From a virus, in the IMG/VR virus record IMGVR_UViG_3300046535_001092, positions 33,164 through 97,163 of that record: a DNA stretch of 64,000 nt. One strand, written 5' to 3'. Below are positions 705 through 33,184 of this stretch, one piece after another; positions within the stretch are counted from its first letter, which is position 1, and each line of letters opens with the position of its first letter. Made by a program: the position numbers and the translations under genes. The notes beneath the pieces are model-generated. The model saw only the letters and a program-made list of their open reading frames with translations. It searched no databases and was not told the DNA's origin.

Positions 705-1856
705 ATGGCTAGTTGTTTACAGGCACACAACGTATATCTAGGTTGTGACCCTGAACTTTTCGTCGTTCGGAATGGTAAGGTGATTGGAGGGGAGAAGGTT
801 ATTAGCGAGAATGGCCTCCCTTACATGAGTCGGAAGGATCCTACTAAGCCATGGGGTGGGACCATGGACGATACTAAGTGTAAGTTTGTACTCGATGGAG
901 TGCAGATTGAGATGACCACATCCCCCTTCAGTTGTAGGGAGGTTATGGGCGATACGATTGCATGCGCCTTTGCAACCCTCAAGGAGCATCTCAAGAAGTA
1001 TGATGCAAAGCCATGCTTTGATGCGGTTGTTGAGGTTGATCCTGAGGAGATGGCTACCCTGAGTGAGAAGGCTAGAATCTTTGGATGTGCTCCTTCTGAG
1101 AACATCTATGGTCCTCAACCGATTGAAGTGGATCCTACAGTCTATCTTAAGAGAGCTGCAGGTGGTCATATCCATCTTGGACTGTTCAATCCTATCTTTG
1201 CTGGGATCGACTCAAAGATTGACTACCGGACTAGACTGGTTCCTATCCTTGACATCCTTGTGGGTAATACCTCAGTCATGGTGGACAGAGATCCTGGGGC
1301 TGTGGAGCGTAGAAAGGCTTATGGCAGAGCGGGAGAGTTTAGACTGCCCAAGCATGGACTTGAGTACCGTACCCTGTCTAACTTCTGGATTAAGGACTAT
1401 AGACTGTTGTCCTTTGTGATGGGACTGTCGAGACTGTCTGTGGCTGTGCTTGGTAGCACACTACAGCGGACTATGTTCGACAATCCTAAGTATAGAGGGA
1501 TCGCTGAGTATGCTCAATACTTAGATCAGCCTGACTATGAGGCTGAGTTGCTGAAGAAGGTTGACATTGAGCAGATTCGGGCTGCCATCAACAAGAATGA
1601 CTTAGATTTGGCTCAGAAGAACTTCGAAGGCGTCAAAGCCTTCCTTGCTGATCATGTTAGACGTCATACAAACATGGGTTTGAATTGGGAGACTGTGCCT
1701 AACTTTGAGTACTTTGTGAGTGAGGTTAATCGTGAGGGTCTTGGGAGATTCTTCAAGGAGGATCCTATTGAACACTGGACTAACCTCCCACTAAGTTTGG
1801 ACAGACAGAATAGAGGTTGGGAACACTTCATCTCTACACTACCACGACGAGGTTGA
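705..1856 (+). CDS. COOH-NH2 ligase (phage amidoligase, glutamine-synthetase fold)
   Basis: Predicted ATP-dependent ligase joining a carboxyl to an amine. The 383-residue protein has the hallmarks of the phage COOH-NH2 ligase family known from phiEco32-like phages: GCDPELF near residues 13-19, DGVQIEM near 64-70, GGHIHLG near 153-159 and EYRTLSNFW near 220-228, which match the metal/ATP and substrate strands of glutamine-synthetase-type ligases. ATG 705 is chosen because GGAGG at 695-699 is five bases upstream. One base separates it from a second, different amidoligase, and a glutamine amidotransferase and an ATP-grasp enzyme follow. Family membership is from recognised motifs; the substrate is unknown, possibly a peptide or a cell-wall amino group. 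Confidence 0.85.
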   Translation: MASCLQAHNVYLGCDPELFVVRNGKVIGGEKVISENGLPYMSRKDPTKPWGGTMDDTKCKFVLDGVQIEMTTSPFSCREVMGDTIACAFATLKEHLKKYDAKPCFDAVVEVDPEEMATLSEKARIFGCAPSENIYGPQPIEVDPTVYLKRAAGGHIHLGLFNPIFAGIDSKIDYRTRLVPILDILVGNTSVMVDRDPGAVERRKAYGRAGEFRLPKHGLEYRTLSNFWIKDYRLLSFVMGLSRLSVAVLGSTLQRTMFDNPKYRGIAEYAQYLDQPDYEAELLKKVDIEQIRAAINKNDLDLAQKNFEGVKAFLADHVRRHTNMGLNWETVPNFEYFVSEVNREGLGRFFKEDPIEHWTNLPLSLDRQNRGWEHFISTLPRRG

Positions 1857-1857
1857 T

Positions 1858-2580
1858 ATGGCAGACGCACTAAACATTGACAGATACCTTGGTAAGACCC
1901 TTAATAGGATCTCACTAGTGGGGATTGAGCTTGAAGGTGGGTGGCAAGTACTACCTCCAGGCACACAGCTTGCACATGATGGCAGTGTGAATCTGAGGAA
2001 TGTGGATGTTCCTCTACAGGGAATTGGAGAACTGCCTAGCGAACCCATGCCGCCTATTAAGATGGCTTCATGGGTACGGAAGTTCTATCCGTCCCACACT
2101 AACTCCACTTGTGGCTTGCATATCCATATGAGCTTCAAGAGTGCTCTCCACTATGGTCAGTTGATGATCCCCGAATATCAGGAGACCATCTTTGACTACA
2201 TGATTAAGTGGGCTAAGGAGGAGAAGCTTCCTAAGACGCATGCCCTATGGAAGAGGCTTGATGGAACTAATCAGTACTGTAGGAAGATCTTTACTGCTGA
2301 CCTACAGGCTCAGAAGACTAGCAAGTCTCACGACATGAATCTCCCAGGCAATAGATATACAGCGATTAACTATTGTCATGGTTTGCATGGGACGATGGAA
2401 TGTAGACTATTGCCGATGCTGGAGAATGCTGAGACAGCTATTCGAGCTTTACGACATATCATGGATATTACTAATGCATGCCTTGTGGTAACAGCTAAGA
2501 AGGAGGCCAAGTTGAAGGCGAGTGCAGAGGTTAGAGGTGGAGAGGACGCTTGGGTGGAAGAAAGGAAGGTCATTGTATGA
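1858..2580 (+). CDS. amidoligase_2-type COOH-NH2 ligase
   Basis: A second glutamine-synthetase-fold ligase of 240 residues. Visible motifs are GIELEG at 22-27, DGS at 41-43, CGLHIHMS at 85-92 and HGTMECRLLPM near 177-187, the order seen in Amidoligase_2 proteins (G-x-E-x-E, cGxHvHvs, E-x-R). It starts two bases after the preceding ligase stop, so the two are co-translated. Two non-identical ligases side by side suggest two sequential condensations on one product. Little of the basic C-terminus is conserved in known enzymes. Substrate unknown. Confidence 0.8.
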   Translation: MADALNIDRYLGKTLNRISLVGIELEGGWQVLPPGTQLAHDGSVNLRNVDVPLQGIGELPSEPMPPIKMASWVRKFYPSHTNSTCGLHIHMSFKSALHYGQLMIPEYQETIFDYMIKWAKEEKLPKTHALWKRLDGTNQYCRKIFTADLQAQKTSKSHDMNLPGNRYTAINYCHGLHGTMECRLLPMLENAETAIRALRHIMDITNACLVVTAKKEAKLKASAEVRGGEDAWVEERKVIV

Positions 2581-2678
2581 CAATGTTCACTCATAAGAAG
2601 TGGTATTGGAAGCCAACCATTTGTAGACGACCTAAGTATACGTCACTGTGGTGGCTCAATCTTTATATTTCGTGGTAA
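2577..2678 (+). CDS. 33-residue Trp-rich peptide
   Basis: ATGA overlap with the preceding stop and an AGGAAGGT site eight bases upstream support translation. The peptide is basic and has five tryptophans (KKWYWKP, SLWWLNLYISW). It could be a substrate or small partner of the neighbouring ligases, or a translational-coupling leader for the amidotransferase; nothing in the sequence decides. Its real existence as a protein is only moderately supported. Confidence 0.45.
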   Translation: MTMFTHKKWYWKPTICRRPKYTSLWWLNLYISW

Positions 2679-2700
2679 CAACGAAGGGGAGGGTAAAAGT

Positions 2701-3837
2701 GTGTGCGTGATTATGTTGGTGCAAGACAAGCGCCCTACTGAGGAGATGATTAAGAAGGCATACGAGACCAATAGTCATGGTGCTGGTATTGCCTGGAAGC
2801 GTAATGACGCTGTCATCTGGAGAAAGGGCCTTGATCTTGATGAGATTAAGAGAATGGCAAAGAGTGTGCCTACTCCCTATGTCCTACACTTTAGGATTGC
2901 AAGTGTGGGCGGTCAGGCTAAGCAACTCTGTCATCCCTTCCCGATTGAAGAGGAAGCTCCTCTAGCGACAGAGGGTAAGACTAAGGGCTATGTCCTATTC
3001 CATAATGGACATTGGGGCAAGTGGAGAGACACTCTTCTTGAGCATCTACCTGGTAAGATTCCTGCTGGTAAGTGGTCAGATACTCGTGCCATGGCTTGGA
3101 TGACTGCCTACTATGGTCTTGGCTTCCTTGAGTTTGTGGATGAGAAGGCCATTGCATTCGGACCTGGTGGATTTGAGGTGTTCAAGGCTACCGATTGGAC
3201 AACGATTGAGGGAGTCTATTGCTCTAATTCACTCTTTCAGTATCGTACCCACAGGTATCATGGTGCTCATGTCTCCATTGATCCCATTTGTACATTCGGT
3301 AACTGTACAGTTAGGTCAGGTCTGGATAGTGATAAGAGGTGTAAAGAACACCCTTTAGTTCCAAAGGGGTTGGAAGCGACGGTCAGTGGCCAGAAGGATG
3401 GGAATACGGATTCATCTAAGGCCATCGACATTCAGCCCCTTCTGATTAATGGGGTTGCTAATCCTAAATATAGGGATCCACAAAGGCTTGCAGATGCTGT
3501 TGCAGCCTTTGGTGGCCCTGACCTTAGTAAGGGTCCGGTGGTTGGGTCGTTCTCTCCTGATGCTAGACTGAGATTGCAAGAAGATAAGAGCGAGTCTGGA
3601 GGTACTCGCGGCATGACCCCTTTTGCGATAGCTCAGCAACTCTTCAACGCGGGGAAGCTGAGCAAAGGGGAGTTGAAGAAGGCACGGAAAGCGCAATCCA
3701 AGTTAGATCGCCAGAAACAGAAGCTCTTGATGAAGGCAGTCAAGAAGCAGGTGAAAGAGGAGAAGCGTCGTTTGAAGTTAGCGCAAGAACGGATGCAGCG
3801 AGAACTAATGACACAACCTTGTTTCACGAAGCACTAG
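2701..3837 (+). CDS. class II glutamine amidotransferase-like protein
   Basis: GTG start behind GGGGAGGG puts Cys at position 2, the N-terminal nucleophile of Ntn-type glutaminases after Met removal. HFRIAS (63-68) and FHNGHW (100-105) match the HxRxAS/T and NG motifs of class II GATases. The domain would release ammonia from glutamine for amide synthesis. After about residue 230 it continues with a low-complexity region and a strongly basic Lys/Gln/Arg helix (about 320-370), which may bind nucleic acid or a partner. Lying between two COOH-NH2 ligases and an ATP-grasp gene, it probably feeds or hydrolyses the same product. The lack of a fused synthase domain is typical of phage members. Confidence 0.8.
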   Translation: MCVIMLVQDKRPTEEMIKKAYETNSHGAGIAWKRNDAVIWRKGLDLDEIKRMAKSVPTPYVLHFRIASVGGQAKQLCHPFPIEEEAPLATEGKTKGYVLFHNGHWGKWRDTLLEHLPGKIPAGKWSDTRAMAWMTAYYGLGFLEFVDEKAIAFGPGGFEVFKATDWTTIEGVYCSNSLFQYRTHRYHGAHVSIDPICTFGNCTVRSGLDSDKRCKEHPLVPKGLEATVSGQKDGNTDSSKAIDIQPLLINGVANPKYRDPQRLADAVAAFGGPDLSKGPVVGSFSPDARLRLQEDKSESGGTRGMTPFAIAQQLFNAGKLSKGELKKARKAQSKLDRQKQKLLMKAVKKQVKEEKRRLKLAQERMQRELMTQPCFTKH

Positions 3838-4007
3838 CACCACAGGGGGCTAGAAAGTTGTGTATTGAGGATTTCACGTGGGCCTGTTCTCTCAATCCAA
3901 AAGGACCATCAAAAGGTGGGCGAGTTATTTTGGACGAGGAGGAGATTAAGCGAGAGTCTCGGAGAAAGCAGGCCGAACAGGGTATTCAGGTGATTGGGAG
4001 GCTCTAA
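3819..4007 (+). CDS. small hypothetical protein
   Basis: A 62-residue frame beginning with TTG inside the end of the amidotransferase gene; another TTG at 3858 has GGGGG about nine bases upstream and may be the real start. The C-terminal half is a charged helix (DEEEIKRESRRKQAEQG). No family recognised. It fills the only gap between the amidotransferase and the next gene, which is why I keep it. Confidence 0.4.
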   Translation: MFHEALAPQGARKLCIEDFTWACSLNPKGPSKGGRVILDEEEIKRESRRKQAEQGIQVIGRL

Positions 4008-4010
4008 GGC

Positions 4011-4349
4011 ATGAATCAAGAAGAATTTCTCGCTTTCATGCAGAAGAAGGAGCCTTCCTCTCCACTTCCCACTCAGACTATTGATGGTGAGGTTGATGGT
4101 GAGGTTGTCTATCCTGATCAGCATGCAAAGGATGATGGGGAGTATGCAGATGAGTTTGACGACCCAGAGGCTGCATTGCTATTGACTGTGGAGACTCTAG
4201 AGGATGTAGGTAGGATGTTGGATATGCTAGCAGTCAAGCATACGATTACAGATAGTATTCGTAGGCAGATTGTAGATCAGGCTAATGAGGTGTATCAGGT
4301 TATACACTCCATTGATGGGACCAAGGAACTTGAAAGGTCGGAGGTTTAA
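4011..4349 (+). CDS. acidic hypothetical protein
   Basis: A 112-residue, very acidic protein with a directly repeated GEVDGEV stretch around residues 26-32 and a predicted helical C-terminal half (about 55-105). No family recognised. It sits three bases upstream of the ATP-grasp gene and could act as an adaptor or substrate carrier for it, but that rests on position alone. Confidence 0.65.
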   Translation: MNQEEFLAFMQKKEPSSPLPTQTIDGEVDGEVVYPDQHAKDDGEYADEFDDPEAALLLTVETLEDVGRMLDMLAVKHTITDSIRRQIVDQANEVYQVIHSIDGTKELERSEV

Positions 4350-4351
4350 CT

Positions 4352-5113
4352 ATGTCATTCTATGTGTACTGTAATAGAGCGAGTGATGGGGCAGCCGAGC
4401 TTACGCGTGGGCTGGAAGGAACGCGGCTGCGCAGGTTTGATGGTATGGACTTCTGGCGTAAGGGCAAGCGGATTGTGCCTAAGAAGGGCGATATCATCAT
4501 CTGTTGGGGATCTCCACTTCCTGAGATTGATGGAGTTAGAGTGTTGAATGGTGAGGATGACCATTACAATAAGTATCGGGCTGCGGAGTTTCTCAGCTTC
4601 AAGGGAATCCCCACAATCACAGCTGTTGCACAGTCCAGAAGACCTACCCCAGTAGACGCTAATGGTATGCCTATTGAGTGGGTTCCACGGACGTTCCATC
4701 ATGTTGGTGGGAATGACCTGATTAAGCCTCCATATAAGCCTGACTTCTGGGTTAAAAAGGAGAACTTCGTTAGAGAGTTCAGGGTCCATAGCTTCGCCTC
4801 TAAGTCGATTAGAGCCGGTGTTAAGGTTCATAGAGAGGGGTTTGCTAATCCTAGTCCTTGGATTAGAAGCTTCGATGCAGGCTGGAGAATTAACTATGAC
4901 AACTTCTCCTCTACTAAGCAGCTGAGAAGTCTTGCTCATAAGGCTTGCAAGACCATGAATCTGGTGTTTGGAGCGGTAGACATCGCTGAGAAGGCTGATG
5001 GTACGATGGTGGTATTGGAGATTAATCGTGCTCCAGGGATTGAAGGTAACTCGATTCCTGCCTACTGTGCAGCTATTCAGAAGTGGGCTAAGGGAGAGAG
5101 CGAAGGAGAATAA
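4352..5113 (+). CDS. ATP-grasp ligase
   Basis: 253 residues with ATP-grasp features: the lysine-bearing strand and EFRVH at 142-146, GAVDIA at 207-212 and the Mg-binding LEINRAPG at 222-229, followed by EGNS. The N-terminal 90 residues resemble the pre-ATP-grasp domain (strand IIICWGS). Enzymes of this fold form a carboxyl phosphate and attack it with an amine, as in RimK-type peptide ligation. Together with the two COOH-NH2 ligases and the GATase this makes the classical phage amidoligase set. Product and acceptor are unknown. Confidence 0.85.
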   Translation: MSFYVYCNRASDGAAELTRGLEGTRLRRFDGMDFWRKGKRIVPKKGDIIICWGSPLPEIDGVRVLNGEDDHYNKYRAAEFLSFKGIPTITAVAQSRRPTPVDANGMPIEWVPRTFHHVGGNDLIKPPYKPDFWVKKENFVREFRVHSFASKSIRAGVKVHREGFANPSPWIRSFDAGWRINYDNFSSTKQLRSLAHKACKTMNLVFGAVDIAEKADGTMVVLEINRAPGIEGNSIPAYCAAIQKWAKGESEGE

Positions 5114-5114
5114 T

Positions 5115-5507
5115 ATGAGTGTAAATTCGTTTGAGGAGCTAGATAAGGTCGTTAAGCCTGCAGAGAAGGCTAAAGAGGATCCTTGTGCCACTGCTCTAGT
5201 GGTTAGGACTAAGGAAGGGGAGGTTAGGTATCCGGCTGCTATCCCTTATACCCCAATTACTCGTCCTATCGTGCCTTATGCAGATAGTGGGCTTAGGGTG
5301 CATGATATTGACCTATATAAGCGTAGAAAGTCTAACGAGTATCGCCCAACGACCATTAGGTTTCCTAGAGAGGAACCACAGCAGATTAACATTCTAGGTA
5401 CTCTGCCTGATGGGAAGGGGCATCTTATAGCTATGGTGGATGAGGACGGGATCATTAGACGGAGAATCATGAGCAGAGATGGTCACATTGGGAGTGTAGA
5501 GGATTAA
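5115..5507 (+). CDS. hypothetical protein of amidoligase cluster
   Basis: ATG 5115 follows GAAGGAGAATA and the preceding stop by one base. The 130-residue product has a charged N-terminus, a proline-rich middle (PAAIPYTPITRPIVPY) and a beta-rich C-terminus ending DEDGIIRRRIMSRDG. No family recognised. Co-translation with the ATP-grasp enzyme suggests a dedicated partner. Confidence 0.7.
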   Translation: MSVNSFEELDKVVKPAEKAKEDPCATALVVRTKEGEVRYPAAIPYTPITRPIVPYADSGLRVHDIDLYKRRKSNEYRPTTIRFPREEPQQINILGTLPDGKGHLIAMVDEDGIIRRRIMSRDGHIGSVED

Positions 5508-5510
5508 AGC

Positions 5511-6227
5511 ATGCTACTACAGAACATGACAAGTTGTGGTATTCAGGAGATAGGGTCTATCCATACCCATCCTACAGCTGAGGATGCCCTAATCTCCTTC
5601 TGTAAACAGAAGACAGGATATTCTCCATCTCCTGAGAAGCCTTGCTTGCAGAGTAATCTGCATGAGTTCTACGTGTTTAGTGGGTTTATTGGGATGGATG
5701 GAGCAATCCGAGAGACTGCTCCCTATAACATTGTGCCTGAGTTTGTCAAGCTAATTGAAGACAATAATCTTGGGGAAGTGTGGAAGACTAAGGTTGGACG
5801 GAATAGAGCGGTTCATCCCAATCATACATATCAGGCATATATTTGGAGTCCTGACGTAGAGCGGCTACAGGAGTGGTATCGTGGTACCCTTGTCAAGCCT
5901 ACAGTTAAGGTTGAGGTTAAGGTTGAGACTATGCCTCAGGTTGTTCAGCGTGATGTGATGAACGCAGTTAGAAATATCGCTATGCAGGCTATTCCTGAGT
6001 TTGACAGAGCAGCTAGACTTGGTGCTGCACATGGTAGACAAGCTAATCTAGAGGAACAGACTCAGCATGTACCAGATGCACCTAAGGTTGCTAAGGCTGC
6101 TGTAAAAGAAGAGAGAAAGCTGCCTCAGGCCTACTATGATATCCCTGACAAGCCTGTTAGACGTGCTACAGTAAAGCTGGGGCTGAAGCCAAGAAAGAGA
6201 CTTTTTAGACGAGGAGGAGGGTTCTAA
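5511..6227 (+). CDS. hypothetical protein of amidoligase cluster
   Basis: 238 residues. The N-terminus carries a SCGIQEIGSIHTH stretch and two further Cys, which might bind metal; the middle (about 60-125) looks alpha/beta with VWKTKVGRNRAVHPNHTYQ; after 130 comes a charged, lysine-rich low-complexity tail. I do not recognise the family. It overlaps the next gene by one base, so it is co-translated with the nucleotidyltransferase-like protein. Confidence 0.7.
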   Translation: MLLQNMTSCGIQEIGSIHTHPTAEDALISFCKQKTGYSPSPEKPCLQSNLHEFYVFSGFIGMDGAIRETAPYNIVPEFVKLIEDNNLGEVWKTKVGRNRAVHPNHTYQAYIWSPDVERLQEWYRGTLVKPTVKVEVKVETMPQVVQRDVMNAVRNIAMQAIPEFDRAARLGAAHGRQANLEEQTQHVPDAPKVAKAAVKEERKLPQAYYDIPDKPVRRATVKLGLKPRKRLFRRGGGF

Positions 6228-7033
6228 TGGCATTGCTAGGAAAGTCATTGAGTGTTGCTGAGACTGAGCCATGGGTGCTGGATGAGGGGCTTGCACTGAT
6301 TCGAGCCATTCAGACTGACACTAGAAACTACGGCTACCATATCGCATTGGGTGGTGGAGTTCTTAATAAGGGTAGATCAAGTAAGGATATTGATTTATTC
6401 TTCCTTCCTATGGAGGGTAAGGGTTTCACCATGCTCGATAAGAAGCTGGTGGCATGGCTTATTAGTATGTGGGGTGAGCCTGAGGACATGACTAAGCCTT
6501 CTAAAGAAGGTCCTAAGTATAAGACTGTGAGATCACAGCCAGTGTTAAGAACGTCCCCATGGTCTCTTAACATTGATAACATTGTTGCTACTAATGCTCC
6601 ACCACCCCCAGCCCCAGTAGCACCTAACAATCTAGGTGATGGTCTAACTGAAGCTCAGAGGGAGTATGCTAGATATCAGGAGCATGCTAGACAGATTAGG
6701 GATGAGAACAATAGGATAGAGGCCGAGAGACGAGCTAGACAAGCTGAGAATCTTATACCTGAACAACCTCTCCATCAGTACTATGTGGCTAACTATAATG
6801 CTGATGGGACTATGGACTTTAGAGTTAATCCAGTATTTGCTGAGACTGTAGCTGAGGGTCCAGCTCCTGATCCTATTCCTGGAACCATTGGTGCTGAGAT
6901 GCAGGCAGCTAGTGCTGGTCTAGGTGTAATCACTGAGGCTTCTGTTGAGCCTTATAAGTCTGGAAGTTCTATCTATCGGTATAAGCTGAAGTTTCATCGT
7001 GGTGATGGTAGAATTGACGCGTTCATCGTTTAG
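6227..7033 (+). CDS. nucleotidyltransferase-fold protein with charged linker
   Basis: The first 110 residues have a GGGVLNKGRSSKDIDLFF signature (about 42-59), matching the G-G/S ... D-x-D active site of the polymerase-beta-like nucleotidyltransferases (D54, D56). Such enzymes move NMP groups onto proteins, RNA or small molecules. A proline patch near 125 and a long charged helix (140-175) link to a beta-rich C-terminus. A second gene with the same motif is at 21363. Its place at the end of the amidoligase operon suggests it modifies the ligase product or its carrier; this is inference. Confidence 0.65.
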   Translation: MALLGKSLSVAETEPWVLDEGLALIRAIQTDTRNYGYHIALGGGVLNKGRSSKDIDLFFLPMEGKGFTMLDKKLVAWLISMWGEPEDMTKPSKEGPKYKTVRSQPVLRTSPWSLNIDNIVATNAPPPPAPVAPNNLGDGLTEAQREYARYQEHARQIRDENNRIEAERRARQAENLIPEQPLHQYYVANYNADGTMDFRVNPVFAETVAEGPAPDPIPGTIGAEMQAASAGLGVITEASVEPYKSGSSIYRYKLKFHRGDGRIDAFIV

Positions 7034-7045
7034 GAAGGGGAAGAA

Positions 7046-7531
7046 ATGGCTGAGACAATTAATATGATTAAGAGGGGTGAGACATGTATGCAGATCACCC
7101 TGCATCGGTCTGCGATTGGGCTAAGTGTCCATGTCAAGACCCATCCTGCTATTGAGGACTTCATGAGAAGTCTGGGAGATGGTCTTGTAAAACCAGTTGA
7201 GATCTATGGTAAGTCGTGGATCTCTATGCCTGGGTCCGAGAGAAGTCTGGAGATCTATAATATGGATCGTAGTCTGCCATATGATATGTATCGCCTAGAT
7301 ATCGCTGGTAGACCAATGGAGCAAGAGGGGCAGCTAAATATGAGCTTCCTACGGCTTGCAGGTACAAGTGAGGGTAATGGGGTTACCTTTGGAGTGAAGG
7401 GCGTATATAGTTTGGAGTCCCTTAGAAATCTGAGAGACAAGATTAGTGCCTCTGCTAGACAGCTCTATATCGAGTACCTCCGTCCGGTTGATCTCACTGT
7501 GACTGTGAGTACTCAGGAAATGGCAGGATAG
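7046..7531 (+). CDS. hypothetical protein
   Basis: 161 residues, start supported by GGAAGGGGAAG just upstream. Mixed beta strands, with a C-terminal helix from about residue 120. It contains a SLRNLRDKISASARQLYIEYLRP helix typical of small phage scaffolding or regulatory proteins but no recognised family. It closes the tightly spaced amidoligase operon. Confidence 0.65.
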   Translation: MAETINMIKRGETCMQITLHRSAIGLSVHVKTHPAIEDFMRSLGDGLVKPVEIYGKSWISMPGSERSLEIYNMDRSLPYDMYRLDIAGRPMEQEGQLNMSFLRLAGTSEGNGVTFGVKGVYSLESLRNLRDKISASARQLYIEYLRPVDLTVTVSTQEMAG

Positions 7532-8726: not shown

Positions 8727-9074
8727 GTGGACAAATCGGTAGACCCTGGACAGCTGGCGATAGACCTACTGTCTAGGTCCATATGTTCCGTACAGGTCGC
8801 AGCGGTCATTGTGGATAGAAAAGGTAGCATATTCGCATGGGGATGGAATTCCTGTGGTTCAGACGGGTATGGTGAACATGCAGAATGTGCTGCCATCAGG
8901 CGGGCAAATCAACGTAGGTTAAAGCATGCTACGATATATGTGGCTGCAAGGCGTAGGGATAGGAAGTGGGACAAGTGCGTAACTGCTAAGCCCTGTCTAT
9001 CTTGTCAGTATAGACTTGATAGATGGGGTCTTAGCGTGGTATTTAGAGATGGTAAAGGAGTGTGGAATGGGTGA
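8727..9074 (+). CDS. cytidine/deoxycytidylate deaminase-like protein
   Basis: 115 residues with the zinc-dependent deaminase signature HAE at 51-53 and PCLSC at 89-93, giving the H-C-C zinc site and the catalytic Glu52. It would deaminate a cytosine nucleoside or nucleotide, or an RNA/DNA base, in the cytoplasm. The GTG start directly abuts the preceding stop. Shorter than most dCMP deaminases (about 150-180), lacking the C-terminal helices, so the substrate is uncertain. Two deoxyribosyltransferase-like proteins, MazG and a DUF5664-type gene further downstream fit a nucleotide-pool role. Confidence 0.8.
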   Translation: MDKSVDPGQLAIDLLSRSICSVQVAAVIVDRKGSIFAWGWNSCGSDGYGEHAECAAIRRANQRRLKHATIYVAARRRDRKWDKCVTAKPCLSCQYRLDRWGLSVVFRDGKGVWNG

Positions 9075-17138: not shown

Positions 17139-17465
17139 ATGAAGAAACTGTTTGTTATGTTGATGTTACTGGTAAGCACAGCTGTATGTGCTCAAAGTAT
17201 GGTCGTTACTGGAAAGGTTACAAACCTAGTCGCTGTAGCAGTAACTACAGCCGAGGGAGATCAGGTTATTGAGACAGATGTTACAGTTGTCGATTCTAAG
17301 GGGAAGGGTACTACATTTAGGGTTAGAGGAGGAGATCTGAATGGCCTAACCTTAAGAGCTAGTTACGAACAGGTTCCCAAGAAGGGCGAGAATATGAAAG
17401 TTCACCTTGCTATGAAGAACGGTCACTATAGACTAGAGCATGGTCAACAGAGTGTGGAGAAGTAA
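17139..17465 (+). CDS. secreted small protein
   Basis: 108 residues with a clear Sec signal peptide (MKKLFVMLMLLVSTAVCA, probable cut after AQS). The mature part is beta-rich, with KVTNLVAVAVTTAEG and a GKGTTFRVRGGDL turn, like OB-fold periplasmic proteins. AAGGAG nine bases upstream. Its stop shares one base with the start of the metalloprotease, so they are co-expressed; it may be a chaperone, inhibitor or immunity factor for it. Confidence 0.7.
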   Translation: MKKLFVMLMLLVSTAVCAQSMVVTGKVTNLVAVAVTTAEGDQVIETDVTVVDSKGKGTTFRVRGGDLNGLTLRASYEQVPKKGENMKVHLAMKNGHYRLEHGQQSVEK

Positions 17466-18598
17466 TGTTTAAGAAACTACTACCGATTGCTATGCTCCTA
17501 AGCTGTGTCGTTGGGCTTGGGGCTTATGTCTCAAATGGTGTATTTTGGCCCAATGTTCCTGTAAAGTATTATATTAATACGGCTAATACTTCAGGAATGA
17601 ATCCTGCCACAGTTGTCTCAGATATTCAGGCAGGAGGTAATGCTTGGGCTACACAGGCTAGCTCAGGTGCTACCCTATCTTATCAAGGTACAACAAGTGA
17701 TCCTTGCACATTTGCTTATGATCAGAAGAATCATGTGTGCTTTAGGGTAGATTCTGGTGGGTGGATTGCTTATACCCAAATCTACACATTCACTGGTCAG
17801 ACAGCTATTCTTGATGCTGATATGATTGTGAACACTACCTATCCATTATTTACAGATGATCAACAATGTAATGGTGGATATTCTATTAAGAATACAGTTA
17901 CACATGAGTTTGGACATCTGTTTGGTCTAGGTCACTCAGCTGATCCTACAGCTACAATGTATCCTACTGCTAATGCTTGTGAGACAAGCAAAGAGGTGCT
18001 ATCAGCCGATGATATTGCTGGTATCCTTTCTCTATACCCTACAGCTGGACCTCCTCCACCTGCTGCACCAGTCTTAACCTCTGTTTCTCCATCTAGTGGC
18101 GCTCAGGGTACTACAGTTCCAGTAACATTGAGTGGTTCTAACTTTGTTATTAGTGGGACCTCTCCAAATATTAGTGGTAGTGGAGTTACATTTAGCAATA
18201 TTGTAGCAAATAACACTACATCTATGACGGCTAACTTTGTGATTAGCTCAGCAGCAGTTGCAGGTGCAAGAACAGTCACTGTAACCACATCAAGTGGAAC
18301 GAGTGGAACACAGCCATTTACAGTCACGGTTCCTCCTCCACCATCTGCTCCAGCTACCCCATCTAACCCCTCACCTGCCAACATGGGTACGGTTAGACAT
18401 AACTCCAACACTACTCTCACATGGGTTGCTGCGGGAGCTACCAGATACACAGTTGTACTTGATGGAGTTGCCCACGCAGTCACCCCCGCCAGTTATAAGG
18501 CCGGTAAGGTTAGCGTAGGAGTACATACATGGTCAGTTACAGCTACTAATAACACTGGTAGCACGAATGGTCCAACCTGGACATTTACATCTAACTAA
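17465..18598 (+). CDS. secreted metzincin (matrixin-like) protease with IPT/TIG domain
   Basis: 377 residues: signal peptide (1-20), then a catalytic domain with HEFGHLFGLGH (H147, E148, H151, H157), the zinc site HExxHxxGxxH of metzincins, and a Met-turn TMYP at 164-167. Residues 205-290 form an IPT/TIG beta domain (SVSPSSGAQGTTVPVTLSG) and the last 85 a second beta-sandwich of FN3 type. It should cleave proteins outside the inner membrane. Such proteins are bacterial rather than viral, so this is likely a captured host gene for envelope penetration or lysogenic conversion. Confidence 0.85.
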   Translation: MFKKLLPIAMLLSCVVGLGAYVSNGVFWPNVPVKYYINTANTSGMNPATVVSDIQAGGNAWATQASSGATLSYQGTTSDPCTFAYDQKNHVCFRVDSGGWIAYTQIYTFTGQTAILDADMIVNTTYPLFTDDQQCNGGYSIKNTVTHEFGHLFGLGHSADPTATMYPTANACETSKEVLSADDIAGILSLYPTAGPPPPAAPVLTSVSPSSGAQGTTVPVTLSGSNFVISGTSPNISGSGVTFSNIVANNTTSMTANFVISSAAVAGARTVTVTTSSGTSGTQPFTVTVPPPPSAPATPSNPSPANMGTVRHNSNTTLTWVAAGATRYTVVLDGVAHAVTPASYKAGKVSVGVHTWSVTATNNTGSTNGPTWTFTSN

Positions 18599-22755: not shown

Positions 22756-22990
22756 GAAGCATGATGATTATGACTATGGTGATAACTTCGATGTCGATAG
22801 TGACTACGAAGCCTACAATGATTATATGGACTACCTAGACGAGAACGCGGAAAGATATGACCATGTAGATGGCTATAGTGTTGACCAGTATAAGGCTGAG
22901 ATTACCCTAAGACTCGTTGAGGCTATTGATGATTTCCTAACCGTAGGCACCGTCTCCGAGCTATTAAAGATTGTAGCGGAAAACACTTAA
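22748..22990 (+). CDS. acidic Tyr/Asp-rich small protein
   Basis: 80 residues from ATG 22748. The first 50 are a DYDYGDNFDVDSDYEAY low-complexity acidic run, the rest a helix. Such acidic proteins may mimic DNA; nothing decisive. Shares one base with the polymerase start (22990). Confidence 0.6.
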   Translation: MTKKHDDYDYGDNFDVDSDYEAYNDYMDYLDENAERYDHVDGYSVDQYKAEITLRLVEAIDDFLTVGTVSELLKIVAENT

Positions 22991-25785
22991 TGCTGCCTAA
23001 ACCATCTTCGTGTATTGGTTGTAGTTTATATGAGAAGCCCCACGGTAAGACTATGGGCTTCTCCATACCCTGTGGGACAGGTAGGAACGGAGTACTTATT
23101 GTAGCAGAGGCCTTGGGAGAGCACGAAGAGAAAGAAGGAATGGCCCTAGTTGGGAAGACTGGTCAGACCCTCTTCCAACAGCTAGCTAGGGTAGGGATCG
23201 AGAGGGATGACTTCACCATCTTCAACACAGTTGCATGCAGACCCCCCAATAATAAGCTTGCTAAGATGGTCTATGAGCAGGATGCTATTGCCCACTGTGC
23301 TCCTAACCTCGACAAAGCCATTGAGGATGCCCACACAATCGCTAAGGCTAATGGTAAGAACTTCGTAATATTAACTCTCGGAGTCATCGCCTTTAAGAGG
23401 GTGATGGGATTGGACTATAAGAAGGATGCGAACTTCCTTAAAGCGGATTATATTGGATACCCTCATTGGAGTGACAAGTATGCTTGCTGGGTTATGGCTA
23501 CTGACCATCCCTCTTACCTCCTACGCGGGAATACTCATCTATGGCCTGTCCTGCAGTTTGTATTTAAGCGGGCTTTGGAGATTGCTGATGGGGGCCTTAC
23601 ACTCTACGACCGACCATACGATCTAGACCCTACCCCCACAGGATTCGATGAGTGGATCAAAGGCTACGAACGTAGTCTAGTAGAGGACAAAGAGAATCCC
23701 CTCTCCTATGACATTGAAACCCCATATAAGAAGAAGAAGTCTGAGGATGACCTAGCTAATGAGGATGATGCTGATCATACAATTCTTAGGATATCTTTTA
23801 GTTATTTTAGCAGTGGAAGTACTCATACTTGTAGTATTAAATGGAGTGCTGAGTATCTGGCAGGGATTGAACGACTATTTAAAATAGCCCCTTTCGTCCT
23901 GGGGTGGAACAGTGATAATTATGATTACCCCAGAGTCTCGCGCCACGTTAAGATTCATGGCATTAGCGTTGATGGCATGGTTGCTTGGCATATTCTTAAT
24001 TCGTCTCTCCCTAAAGGACTGGGGTTCGTTACTCCATACTATGTTCAGAACACTCTGATGTGGAAGCATCTGTCAGAGTCTCAGCCTGCCTTCTACAATG
24101 CGAAGGATGCTGATATGGCCCTACAGAACTACCTAGGGATTAAGAAGGATCTGATTAGGAATAAGCTGTGGGAAGTGTTTGAGATCCATGTCCTCAGGAT
24201 CAATGAGGCCCTCAACTATATGACAGGGATTGGGGTGTTGAGAGACACCAAGATGAGGGATGAAGCAGAGCTTCGCCTGCAGGGTGTGTTAGATGGTATT
24301 GAGAAGAAGATGGAGGACGTGGTTCCTGTCGAGGCCAGGAAGCTGAAGTTCTATAAGAAGACTCCTAAGGTTATCAAGGAAGGGATGTTTGAAGTTGAGA
24401 AAGACTATCCAGTCAAATACTGCGGAGTATGTGGGGTCTATAGACCAACTAAAGGACATGCTAAAGTTTGTCCTACTTATGTTGTTGTTGAGATACTTGA
24501 GAGACAAAAGGTCTGGGCAGAACCCTTAGAGTTTAAGATCTCTAAGCTAGGCATGACCAACTACCAGAAGTCTCTCAGGCATATGGCAGTTGTTAATAGG
24601 AGAGAGCAGAAGGTTACGTTCGATGAGGATGCTATTGTTAGACTAATGAAGGACTATCCTAAGGATCCCCTTTATCCCCTCATTATTAGCCATAGGAAGA
24701 CTCAGAAACTCCTCTCCACCTATGTAGGTGTAACTCAGGAGAGTGGGAGAGTAAGGGGAGGGATGCCAGTAGGTAAGGACGGACGCATTCATGCCACCTA
24801 CACCCATAACCCATCAACATTGAGGTTTGCATGTGAAGATCCTAATTTACAGAATCTACCGAGACCTAATCCGAGTGATCCTAACGATCCTGTTAATATC
24901 ATTAGGAATCTTATTATTGCCTCTCCTGGCAATATACTTTATGCTAGAGACTTCTCTGGCATCGAGGCTGTACTCACGGGATACTTTGCCATGGACCCCA
25001 AATACATTCGTATTGCTAAGAGGGATATCCATACGTATTACACGGTGCATGCCTTATATGAGCTTGAGGGTGGGGCTAGAATAAAGGCTAGCGACCTCCC
25101 CGACCTAGACTGGCCTGATGACCGTCTATTCCCCTACCTAGAACAGCTCAAGAAAGAGTTCAAGCGGGAGAGAAATAGTCTATATAAGCATCTGGTTCAT
25201 GCTGCTAACTTCATGCAGAGTCCTAAGGGTGCTCAGGAGAAGATCTTCTCAGAGACCAGGATTGAGTATCCTATTAAGACAGTAGCAAAGGTAATGGATG
25301 TCTACTACTCTCTATTCCCGTCTATTCGTAGATGGCATAAGGCAGTGTTAGATGAGGCCGAGAAGGATGGATACTTACGCAACCCGTACGGTTACGTCCA
25401 TAGATTTTCAAAAGTCTACGACTATACGAGAGAGTATGGTGAATGGGTTAAGAAAAGTGGCCCGGATAGTAACAAGGTAATCGCGTTTAAGCCTCAGTCT
25501 ACTGCAGCTGGTATTATCAAGGAGGCTATCCTAGAGCTATTCTTCAATCGGTTTGAAGAGGCTGGTCAATACCTTAGGTTGCAGGTCCATGACGAGCTTC
25601 TTAGTGAGATTCCTAGAGGAGAGTGGGAGAGGGTAGACGGGATTATGAGAGAGGTTATGGAGAGACCTAACCCACAGATGAGGATGCCTGAGAGTTGGGG
25701 TATGGGCGAATACCTCTCAATATTGACTGAGGCTAAGGCTGACCTTTCTGAGGTTAGTCGGTGGGGGAGTATGAAAGGACTATGA
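22990..25785 (+). CDS. family 4-type uracil-DNA glycosylase fused to DNA polymerase A
   Basis: 931 residues. N-terminal ~200: C8, C11, C83 and C103 (a 4Fe-4S set), VAEALGEHEEKEGMALVGKTG (38-58) and HPS at 173-175, matching family 4 UDG. Then a DEDD exonuclease: DIET (241-244), GWNSDNYDYP (305-314) and YNAKDADM (369-376). C-terminal polymerase palm: DFSGIEA (D654), KHLVHAANFMQSPKG (K733, H737) and QVHDELL (H867-D868-E869). One chain would remove uracil, proofread and copy DNA. Motif B has H where PolA usually has K-x-x-x-F/Y. A C-x-x-C pair near 478 also suggests a small zinc site. Length exceeds normal PolA. Confidence 0.9.
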   Translation: MLPKPSSCIGCSLYEKPHGKTMGFSIPCGTGRNGVLIVAEALGEHEEKEGMALVGKTGQTLFQQLARVGIERDDFTIFNTVACRPPNNKLAKMVYEQDAIAHCAPNLDKAIEDAHTIAKANGKNFVILTLGVIAFKRVMGLDYKKDANFLKADYIGYPHWSDKYACWVMATDHPSYLLRGNTHLWPVLQFVFKRALEIADGGLTLYDRPYDLDPTPTGFDEWIKGYERSLVEDKENPLSYDIETPYKKKKSEDDLANEDDADHTILRISFSYFSSGSTHTCSIKWSAEYLAGIERLFKIAPFVLGWNSDNYDYPRVSRHVKIHGISVDGMVAWHILNSSLPKGLGFVTPYYVQNTLMWKHLSESQPAFYNAKDADMALQNYLGIKKDLIRNKLWEVFEIHVLRINEALNYMTGIGVLRDTKMRDEAELRLQGVLDGIEKKMEDVVPVEARKLKFYKKTPKVIKEGMFEVEKDYPVKYCGVCGVYRPTKGHAKVCPTYVVVEILERQKVWAEPLEFKISKLGMTNYQKSLRHMAVVNRREQKVTFDEDAIVRLMKDYPKDPLYPLIISHRKTQKLLSTYVGVTQESGRVRGGMPVGKDGRIHATYTHNPSTLRFACEDPNLQNLPRPNPSDPNDPVNIIRNLIIASPGNILYARDFSGIEAVLTGYFAMDPKYIRIAKRDIHTYYTVHALYELEGGARIKASDLPDLDWPDDRLFPYLEQLKKEFKRERNSLYKHLVHAANFMQSPKGAQEKIFSETRIEYPIKTVAKVMDVYYSLFPSIRRWHKAVLDEAEKDGYLRNPYGYVHRFSKVYDYTREYGEWVKKSGPDSNKVIAFKPQSTAAGIIKEAILELFFNRFEEAGQYLRLQVHDELLSEIPRGEWERVDGIMREVMERPNPQMRMPESWGMGEYLSILTEAKADLSEVSRWGSMKGL

Positions 25786-26192
25786 TTTATTTAATAGGTA
25801 GTCTAAGGAATCCTAAGATCCCTGAGATAACTAATAGACTAAGTGAGGCTGGACATGAAGTGTTCTCGGATTGGTATGCTGCTGGAGAGCATGCTGATGA
25901 TGCTTGGAGGGATTATGAAAAAGGTAGAGGTAGAAGTTACATCCAGGCTCTTAGAGGATATGCTGCGAAGAACGTATATGAGTTCGATAGAAGGCACTTG
26001 GAGAGAGCGGATACTGTTATCCTGGCTGCCCCTGCCGGTAAGTCTGGTCATCTTGAACTTGGCTGGGCGTTGGGACAGGGTAAGAATGGTTATTACCTCC
26101 TTGACTCGCCGGATAGATGGGATGTAATGCTACAGTTCTGCACAGGAGTATACACAGATATTGAGGACTTAATAGATGAACTTAAAGATTGA
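25782..26192 (+). CDS. nucleoside 2-deoxyribosyltransferase-like protein
   Basis: 136 residues from ATG 25782 (ATGA overlap with the polymerase). IYLIGSLRNPKI (2-13), DWYAAGEHADDAW and a closing SGHLELGWALGQGK (E near 92) match the N-deoxyribosyltransferase fold, which swaps bases between deoxynucleosides or hydrolyses dNMPs. Joined to the polymerase operon, it may remodel the dNTP pool or make a modified nucleotide. A related but distinct gene is at 28361. Confidence 0.8.
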   Translation: MIYLIGSLRNPKIPEITNRLSEAGHEVFSDWYAAGEHADDAWRDYEKGRGRSYIQALRGYAAKNVYEFDRRHLERADTVILAAPAGKSGHLELGWALGQGKNGYYLLDSPDRWDVMLQFCTGVYTDIEDLIDELKD

Positions 26193-31045: not shown

Positions 31046-31815
31046 TAGAGCACCCGAGTTGTGGTAGCTGCAGTCTCAGGCTTAACTGTTCTGAACCATC
31101 CCCCACACCCCTGGCACTGGAAGCGTTGGTAGATCCTAGAGATAGCCTTATGCACCCCTCTAGACTGGACCTTCTTCGAGCCGCATCTCGGGCATCCTTC
31201 GGTCTGACCGAACAGCTGTCTATTGATATGGTTCTGGCAGAAGGGCTGGAGCTTCTGGAATACCTTCTTTAGAAGTACCACATCTTGTTTGTTATATGTG
31301 ACCATCTCCTTGATGGCCTTAGGGTCACCTTTCAAGGCTCCTAACCATAGACCCTTAGTTGTTTGGATCTTCCTGCCTAGTCCTAGGTAGTGACCTAGAT
31401 AGTCTAACTTATTTGAGTTAAACTTGAAGCGATTCTTAGCAATCTTATACGTGTCTATGGAGGGGATAACAGGTAGAGGTGAGAGTCCATGGAACAGCAT
31501 GCGGGTTTCAACATACTTGGTATCGAAGCTATCACCGTTGTGAGCCACGAGACAATCGGCTGAGGATAGAACTTCATGTAACTTCTCACATACTCCCTTA
31601 TCGTTATGTGGATCTTTCTTAAACATGCTAGGGAAGTCTAGTAGGGAGACTGAGTGTACCTTCTCCTCACCTTCCCACTGCCATGCTGCTGAGATTAGAT
31701 GTCTCTCCTGATAGATATTGGAGGGATCAATGAAATCGTTATATTTAAGGTCGAAGACCGATACTAGTTCTAACGAAGTCTCGATATCCCAATACAATAC
31801 TCTAGGTTTTGCCAT
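31045..31815 (-). CDS. DEDD-family 3'-5' exonuclease with zinc ribbon
   Basis: 256 residues. WDIET (D10, E12), AHNGDSFDT (D98) and YNKQDV (Y174, D178) give the DEDDy exonuclease motifs; residues 218-242 carry CPRCGSKK...CQGCGG, a zinc ribbon. It would trim DNA or RNA ends, or proofread separately from the polymerase. Start at 31815 with AAGGAG six bases upstream and promoter 31848-31876. Separate from the + strand replication set, which is odd for a replicative exonuclease. Confidence 0.8.
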   Translation of the reverse strand: MAKPRVLYWDIETSLELVSVFDLKYNDFIDPSNIYQERHLISAAWQWEGEEKVHSVSLLDFPSMFKKDPHNDKGVCEKLHEVLSSADCLVAHNGDSFDTKYVETRMLFHGLSPLPVIPSIDTYKIAKNRFKFNSNKLDYLGHYLGLGRKIQTTKGLWLGALKGDPKAIKEMVTYNKQDVVLLKKVFQKLQPFCQNHINRQLFGQTEGCPRCGSKKVQSRGVHKAISRIYQRFQCQGCGGWFRTVKPETAATTTRVL

Positions 31816-32559: not shown

Positions 32560-33184
32560 TTTGTTTCCTAGAGGCTAAGAGTTGAAGCATGATCTCACGG
32601 GCATTGGGAGGGAGTTGGTTAGGGATACCAAAGGTTCTATGTCTAGCTATCTGTCCAGCTTCTTCAGGGGTCTTCTCATCTCCATAGCCAGCAGCGTGTG
32701 CGGCTTCATGTACCACAGTGGGGAGGAGTTCTCCTGGGTTTGTTCCTACATGGTCAAGAGGTAGGTCTGAGGGGTGACCTTGTGCAGATATGCGAGGATT
32801 AAGGCTGATACTAGAGGGCCATAGACCAAACTTAGTTGTACCTAGGAGGTTGAGCTTGGGGAAATCCTCAGGCTTCCACTTAGTATTATTCTCCTCATTA
32901 GACCTATCTATGTAGTGCATAGCATCGTCTGTGGGGCCATACTGGACCTTACCAATCATCCCTTGGAGTGATGGAGCAAACCTTAGAAGCTGTTGGATGA
33001 TCCTAGAGGCATCTGCTCCATTGACTGTGGGGAGAGGCTGGAAGTTGGAGGCATTAGGGACAAGGGCATGATCTTCCCCACCTGGCATAGTGACGGTGTT
33101 TATGCGGGGCAAAGCCAGTTTCTGCTTACCTGTGGGTTCGTCTAGGATCTCTAATAGACGTTGAGTGTTAGGACCTTGGGGCAT
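32549..33184 (-). CDS. putative zinc metallopeptidase of the structural block
   Basis: 211 residues. LPTVVHEAAHAAGYGDEKTPEEAG (near 153-176) has HExxH with a third ligand-like G-Y-G-D-E, a zincin pattern. No signal peptide. The N-terminal half is loop-rich and resembles other phage structural-operon proteins. It could process virion proteins, or cleave peptides in the envelope during injection. Confidence 0.65.
   Translation of the reverse strand: MPQGPNTQRLLEILDEPTGKQKLALPRINTVTMPGGEDHALVPNASNFQPLPTVNGADASRIIQQLLRFAPSLQGMIGKVQYGPTDDAMHYIDRSNEENNTKWKPEDFPKLNLLGTTKFGLWPSSISLNPRISAQGHPSDLPLDHVGTNPGELLPTVVHEAAHAAGYGDEKTPEEAGQIARHRTFGIPNQLPPNAREIMLQLLASRKQNAK

Follow-up and report, generated by a model that had tools for sequence, protein, structure and literature searches.

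What might a phage build with a tightly packed run of amide-bond-forming enzymes, and how are the genes for them read? This question is raised by an operon at the start of a 64,000-nucleotide stretch (the window) of the IMG/VR virus record IMGVR_UViG_3300046535_001092, which covers a linear viral contig of 97,163 bases from base 33164 to base 97163. Its gene content marks the contig as that of a phage: the window encodes a primase/helicase-type ATPase, a protein with an internal-virion-protein match, and a family A DNA polymerase that carries a uracil-DNA-glycosylase domain at its N-terminus. An original prediction, made from the DNA letters of this stretch, had described a tightly coupled operon holding two different COOH-NH2 ligases, a class II glutamine amidotransferase (GATase), an ATP-grasp ligase and several partners. 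All of these open reading frames (ORFs) are present, and the named ORFs of the cassette lie on the + strand, packed tightly, most with good Shine-Dalgarno (SD) sites. The operon extends to 7531, beyond the end at 7033 given before. With a probability of roughly 60%, we read it as a γ-glutamyl-type amidoligase cassette whose GATase is made in two forms by programmed -1 frameshifting. The two C-termini of the GATase gene are a new observation, while the cassette itself is already known.

The GATase gene had been taken as one frame, and its second reading frame had been missed. Its 0-frame stops at 3837, and the seemingly empty stretch that follows (3838-4010) codes in the -1 frame relative to the GATase. 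This frame is open from 3588 to 4007 on the + strand, and the extension occupies the gap before the next gene, which starts at 4011. Four diverged relatives (loci L014, L015, L020 and L025) share the arrangement. In all five genomes the -1 frame opens just 5' of a CCCTTTY heptamer and continues past the GATase stop, with an overlap of 150-280 nt; it is open for 46-80 codons before that stop. Resampling of synonymous codons 3' of the heptamer gave low probabilities for such openness (window, P=0.0011; L020, 0.0002; L015, 0.0016; L014, 0.0046; L025, 0.0004), and none of the five genomes keeps the +1 frame open. Since five separate contigs show the same frame relation, we rejected the idea that a sequencing error produced the frame change.

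The -1 tail is conserved past the stop (window versus L015, E=1.2e-5; window versus L020, 0.0014), and leave-one-out tail profiles recovered most tails, that of L014 only at 0.07. The Lys-rich 0-frame tail is also conserved. In L026 and L028 the long tail lies in frame with the GATase, and one leave-one-out profile matched the in-frame C-terminus of L028 (0.003), a weak homology. The closest GATase relative found, L096 (contig 3300036859_000186, around position 4754; 51% identical over the matched part), has the two tails reversed: its main frame continues into the long one, and it is the Lys-rich tail that lies in the +1 frame (1e-5) at ACC TTT CGC, which we take to resemble the influenza PA-X +1 frameshift motif.

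The heptamer stands in phase in all five dual-frame genomes, and the -1 open frame reaches 3-54 nt upstream of it. Ahead of it lies an SD-like GGNGGT element, at a spacing of 14 nt in four genomes and 15 nt in L025. SD-stimulated -1 shifts have spacings of 9-14 nt according to a review (PMC5009743); the present spacing lies at the upper end of this range or, in L025, one base beyond it. Equally strong SD matches stand at 0.3-0.8% of positions in the GATase genes of four genomes, against 10% in that of L015, and the 97-kb contig as a whole has a single instance of the SD-plus-heptamer pattern. In L025 the element encodes APGV, not SGG, so that the constraint looks like one on RNA rather than on protein. 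In the window, a 7-bp stem follows 6 nt 3' of the heptamer, and none of 100 codon shuffles reached its pairing score; plain folding energy 3' of the heptamer is ordinary in all five genomes (window z -0.57). Bacterial -1 programmed frameshifting (dnaX, IS elements, phage tail assembly chaperones) has in common with this gene the XXXYYYZ heptamer, the internal SD at -1 spacing and the C-terminal extension. The present case differs in that the gene encodes a class II glutamine amidotransferase, in its CCCTTTY heptamer, in its long dual-coding overlap and in having no conserved downstream structure.

The dual-frame arrangement and the shared signal are features of the sequences themselves; that ribosomes shift at the heptamer, and that both GATase forms work, is what we infer from them. 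Most ribosomes would terminate at 3837 and release a GATase of 378 amino acids with the Lys-rich tail. Some, after a backward slip of one base at C_CCT_TTT (3618-3624), would read on to 4007 and make a GATase of 435 amino acids with a linker and the conserved tail. The slippage would be aided by the GGAGGT 14 nt upstream and, in the window, perhaps also by a downstream pseudoknot. A plausible, though speculative, role for the tails would be docking, with each attaching the glutaminase to a different partner. Going one step further, frameshifting might set the isoform ratio, with each tail linking the ammonia source to a different ligase; L096 would then reach the same pair by a +1-type shift, and selection would keep the two-isoform output, not the mechanism. 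This extended proposal is tentative, and we put it at less than even odds.

The main rival to a frameshift extension is that the -1 ORF is a separate small gene, translated through reinitiation or from a weak start of its own. Coupled small genes are frequent in this operon, and a possible start for such a gene, of 49 amino acids, is the TTG at 3858 of the window, which has a good SD. However, no start codon is found at a shared position across the genomes, and L014 has none at all. Nor would a separate gene account for a -1 frame that is open over 46-80 codons before the stop, for a heptamer and SD common to the five genomes, for the tails that lie in frame in L026 and L028, or for the reversed gene of L096. 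We consider it quite unlikely.

Frameshifting is the reading that we prefer, and besides the TTG at 3858 several points weigh against it or against the chemistry that goes with it. Under a stricter null, in which only the observed codons were permuted, the support for -1 openness was weaker (window, 0.40; L020, 0.007; L015, 0.05; L014, 0.50; L025, 0.05), and the five openness tests are not fully independent because the genomes share ancestry. The tail of L025 went unrecognised by the tail profile (E 0.31). No equivalent of the window stem was found in the four relatives and no downstream RNA structure is conserved in the five genomes; such a structure was rejected as a shared frameshift signal. 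On the chemical side, two enzymes that accompany many related cassettes, γ-glutamyl cyclotransferase (GGCT) and a C26 hydrolase, gave no match in the 97-kb contig, although this contig may not be complete. Furthermore, the literature surveyed reports no shown activity or product for any phage member of the cassette.

The four core enzymes were assigned by profiles, motifs and models. Ligase 1 matched PF14395 (2.4e-10, 40.5 bits against a cut-off of 25) and PHROG 3815 (6.8e-36), as expected of a COOH-NH2 ligase, and retains the DPE, GGHIH, RR..YG and EYRTLSNFW motifs. Its AlphaFold model (pLDDT 87.8) shares a fold with YbdK, γ-glutamylmethylamide synthetase, glutamine synthetase (GS) and plant glutamate-cysteine ligase in a Foldseek search of the PDB (probability about 1.0, with TM-scores of only 0.3-0.4); a PDB sequence search detected no similarity to these four enzymes, all of which form γ-glutamyl amide bonds. 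Ligase 2 and the GATase are too diverged for single-sequence searches. The direct match of ligase 2 to Amidoligase_2 was weak (0.08, 13.2 bits; Pfam cut-off 22), tblastn against annotated phages returned no relatives of it, and a Pfam search with the GATase gave no GATase match. Iterated profiles built through 80 viral loci linked ligase 2 at 1e-39 or better to amidoligases annotated in each of the nine reference phages, placing it as an Amidoligase_2-type ligase, and linked the GATase to nine phage GATases at 1e-32 or better. The GATase family profile matched GlmS/PurF in the PDB at 1e-10, and one scan of chromosomal contigs for the GATase family gave no chromosomal relatives. The ATP-grasp ligase matched PHROG 2599 (1.2e-24), and its family profile found RimK first in the PDB (1.5e-8).

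Invariant positions comprise G22, E24, E26, H88, H90, R166, Y167, E181 and R183 in ligase 2; C2, R65, G70, H78, N102 and G103 across 14 aligned GATases, which in addition to these have an SDTR motif resembling SDTE; and E142, H146 and N225 in the ATP-grasp ligase, where E223 is nearly invariant. The catalytic motifs are intact in all four enzymes, and the alignments gave no sign of the loss of active-site residues that would have spoken against the original prediction. The features of the operon are listed in Table 1.

Table 1. Features of the operon and of the putative frameshift site, in window positions.
Feature	Positions	Strand	Basis
Ligase 1, COOH-NH2 ligase (PF14395), GS/GCS fold	705-1856	+	Pfam, PHROG, motifs, model
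Ligase 2, Amidoligase_2-type	1858-2580	+	Iterated profile, invariant residues
Trp-rich peptide gene (33 amino acids), start overlapping ligase 2 end	2577-2678	+	Homologue in L014
Class II GATase, 0-frame product (378 amino acids), Lys-rich C-terminal tail	2701-3837	+	Profile, invariant residues
Internal SD-like GGAGGT, 14 nt 5' of heptamer	3598-3603	+	Spacing conserved
Candidate -1 slippery heptamer C_CCT_TTT	3618-3624	+	In phase, kept in relatives
-1 frame extension of GATase: low-complexity linker and conserved tail (predicted fusion 435 amino acids)	3624-4007	+	Open frame, tail homology
Stem GCTCAGC/GCTGAGC, possible H-type pseudoknot to GTTGAAGA	3631-3663	+	Pairing score, window only
Small acidic protein	4011-4349	+	Acidic ORF before ATP-grasp in relatives
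RimK-like ATP-grasp ligase	4352-5113	+	PHROG, family profile, invariant residues
Small protein	5115-5507	+	Homologue in L015; weak phmmer match in L014
Multicopy small-protein family member	5511-6227	+	14/90 loci
Minimal nucleotidyltransferase-like protein	6227-7033	+	Motif invariant in four genomes
Constant fifth cassette gene of lineage	7046-7531	+	14 genomes

With family membership supported by profile for all four enzymes, the operon is a diverged member of the phage amidoligase cassette of phiEco32, LUZ24, 7-11, PA11 and RIO-1, in agreement with the phiEco32-like enzyme set that had been proposed for it. The phiEco32/LUZ24/RIO-1-like cassette (Iyer 2009 as cited in PMC10580990; PMC5498523; UFV-P2, PMC3890496) likewise combines PF14395 and Amidoligase_2 ligases, a class II GATase and an ATP-grasp ligase near replication genes. 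In contrast to it, the window enzymes share only some 14-32% identity with the reference-phage proteins in the alignments, an unrelated protein (7046-7531) replaces the PHROG 4877 protein of about 190 amino acids in the window lineage, GGCT and the C26 hydrolase are missing, a nucleotidyltransferase is added, and the GATase appears to be read in two frames.

We counted neighbouring genes at 90 phage loci holding a PF14395 ligase, many of which are cut by contig ends. Ligase 2 was present at 70, the GATase at 84 and the ATP-grasp ligase at 78 of these loci, and 65 keep all four enzyme genes within about 10 kb. Related phages do keep the genes together, whereas genes scattered apart would have spoken against the original prediction. 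GGCT was found near the cassette at 45 of the 90 loci, including those of the relatives L026 and L028, and a class I GATase-like gene at 44; the PA11 copy of the latter is a Peptidase_C26, of the γ-glutamyl hydrolase family. Both GGCT and the C26 hydrolase seem to have been lost from the phage of the window. The PHROG 4877 protein, which lies between the ligases at 30/90 loci and hence is not strictly defining, is absent from the window contig. In some phages (L033, L039, L045, L049, L050, L075, L076 and L092) the fetched stretch holds at least two PF14395-type ligases and lacks an Amidoligase_2, which suggests that a member of either family can occupy the slot of the second ligase.

As for the chemistry, the two GS/GCS-fold ligases and the RimK-like ATP-grasp ligase would activate carboxylates with ATP and couple them to amines, and the class II GATase would split glutamine to supply ammonia or glutamate. 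The likely output would be γ-glutamyl-type amides or isopeptides on a small molecule or an envelope component. We favour γ-glutamyl chemistry, as the best and most economical guess, because GGCT and the C26 hydrolase near the cassette both cut γ-glutamyl bonds. Substrate and product are guesses, since no phage member has a shown activity in the literature surveyed.

Peptidoglycan contains D-Glu γ-linkages, and the cassette might instead alter the stem peptides of host peptidoglycan to block superinfection. However, GGCT-type enzymes require a free α-amino group on the γ-glutamyl residue, and the D-Glu of the stem peptide is without one. PMC5498523, on RIO-1-like phages, and PMC10580990, on phiEco32 and citing Iyer 2009, offer this as a hypothesis and name the same gene set a peptidoglycan modification cassette against superinfection. 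No supporting experiment was found in the literature surveyed, and we hold this reading to be somewhat unlikely.

Glutamylation of a protein in the manner of RimK, for example of a ribosomal, phage or host surface protein, would accord with RimK as the closest solved structure to the ATP-grasp ligase. In phage SU10, mass spectrometry of the proteome revealed GATase, ATP-grasp and YtfP-family products, and such cassette-type proteins were counted among the early gene products (PMC4281155). This reading lacks a constant candidate substrate, the 33-residue peptide occurring in two genomes and the acidic 4011 protein not being alignable, and it leaves two further GS-fold ligases unexplained; it is unlikely. 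Attachment of amino acids or polyamines to bases occurs in other phages, and a DNA-base hypermodification pathway adding amino groups to bases was also considered. No modified-nucleotide synthesis gene was found among the scanned proteins of this only partly annotated genome, and such a pathway is highly improbable.

The accessory genes were compared across a lineage of 14 genomes, consisting of the window and L014, L015, L020, L025, L026, L027, L028, L175/L204, L179, L181, L182, L189 and L194. The constant member at 7046-7531, which the original prediction had missed, belongs to a family that lies directly 5' of ligase 2 in 12/14 genomes, whereas in the window and L020 it closes the operon at its 3' end. 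It had no PDB match with a model of only moderate quality (pLDDT 65), and homology to the same-slot protein of about 190 amino acids in other phages was rejected (hhalign probability 0.1-0.3%). The 33-residue gene at 2577 gained support from a homologue in the same slot of L014 (13174-13281; phmmer 2.9e-5). It was found in no other relatives (2/14 lineage genomes, window included), and the peptide was rejected as the substrate of the cassette on account of this distribution.

A constant co-occurrence of the genes at 4011, 5115, 5511 and 6227, suggested as a check on the cluster, was not borne out. The 4011 protein has no homologue detectable by sequence and is conserved solely as an acidic ORF directly 5' of the ATP-grasp gene, also in L014, L015, L020, L025, L026 and L028; an amino-group carrier role was rejected, its C-termini not being conserved. 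The 5115 gene occurs in 2/14 lineage genomes, with a weak phmmer match in L014 besides. The 5511 family is dispersed and multicopy: the phage of the window has three copies (..CCG..EI.. / ..W.W..), two of which lie farther upstream on its contig, at positions 31068-31442 and 25606-25965 of the contig, and relatives have up to three per locus. One tested copy had no Pfam or PHROG match. The nucleotidyltransferase-like gene, present in 4/14 lineage genomes, bears out its earlier description through its motif (GGGVLNKGRSSKDIDLFFLP ... RIDAFIV in the window), with GG..N.G.S.KD.DL.FLP ... RID.FI invariant in four genomes; tblastn against annotated phages gave no match to it.

Elsewhere in the window, the family A DNA polymerase at 22990-25785 is fused to its N-terminal uracil-DNA-glycosylase domain (PF03167, 5e-15; PF00476, 1.6e-30), and a Matrixin-type metallopeptidase (PF00413, 6.9e-15) with a weak TIG-domain match is encoded at 17465-18598 of this phage genome. 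A short cytidine-deaminase-like ORF (HAE...PC..C pattern), called by eye only, lies 3' of the cassette at 8727-9074 and also in L020, L025 and L028. Searches of the window for tRNA and Rfam families found none. A reading as a defence system was rejected, with no PADLOC match except a weak Cas5d that we took as chance.

Although the cassette, present in many lytic phages, has been recognised since around 2009, the literature surveyed reports no product for it, in line with the original prediction. Its association with γ-glutamyl-cleaving enzymes narrows the candidate chemistry. A programmed frameshift in a phage metabolic enzyme gene would be unusual, the phage examples in the literature surveyed being tail-assembly genes. 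If the GATase is indeed made as two isoforms with different tails, the glutaminase may serve more than one partner, and the two forms would hence offer a direct handle on the cassette.

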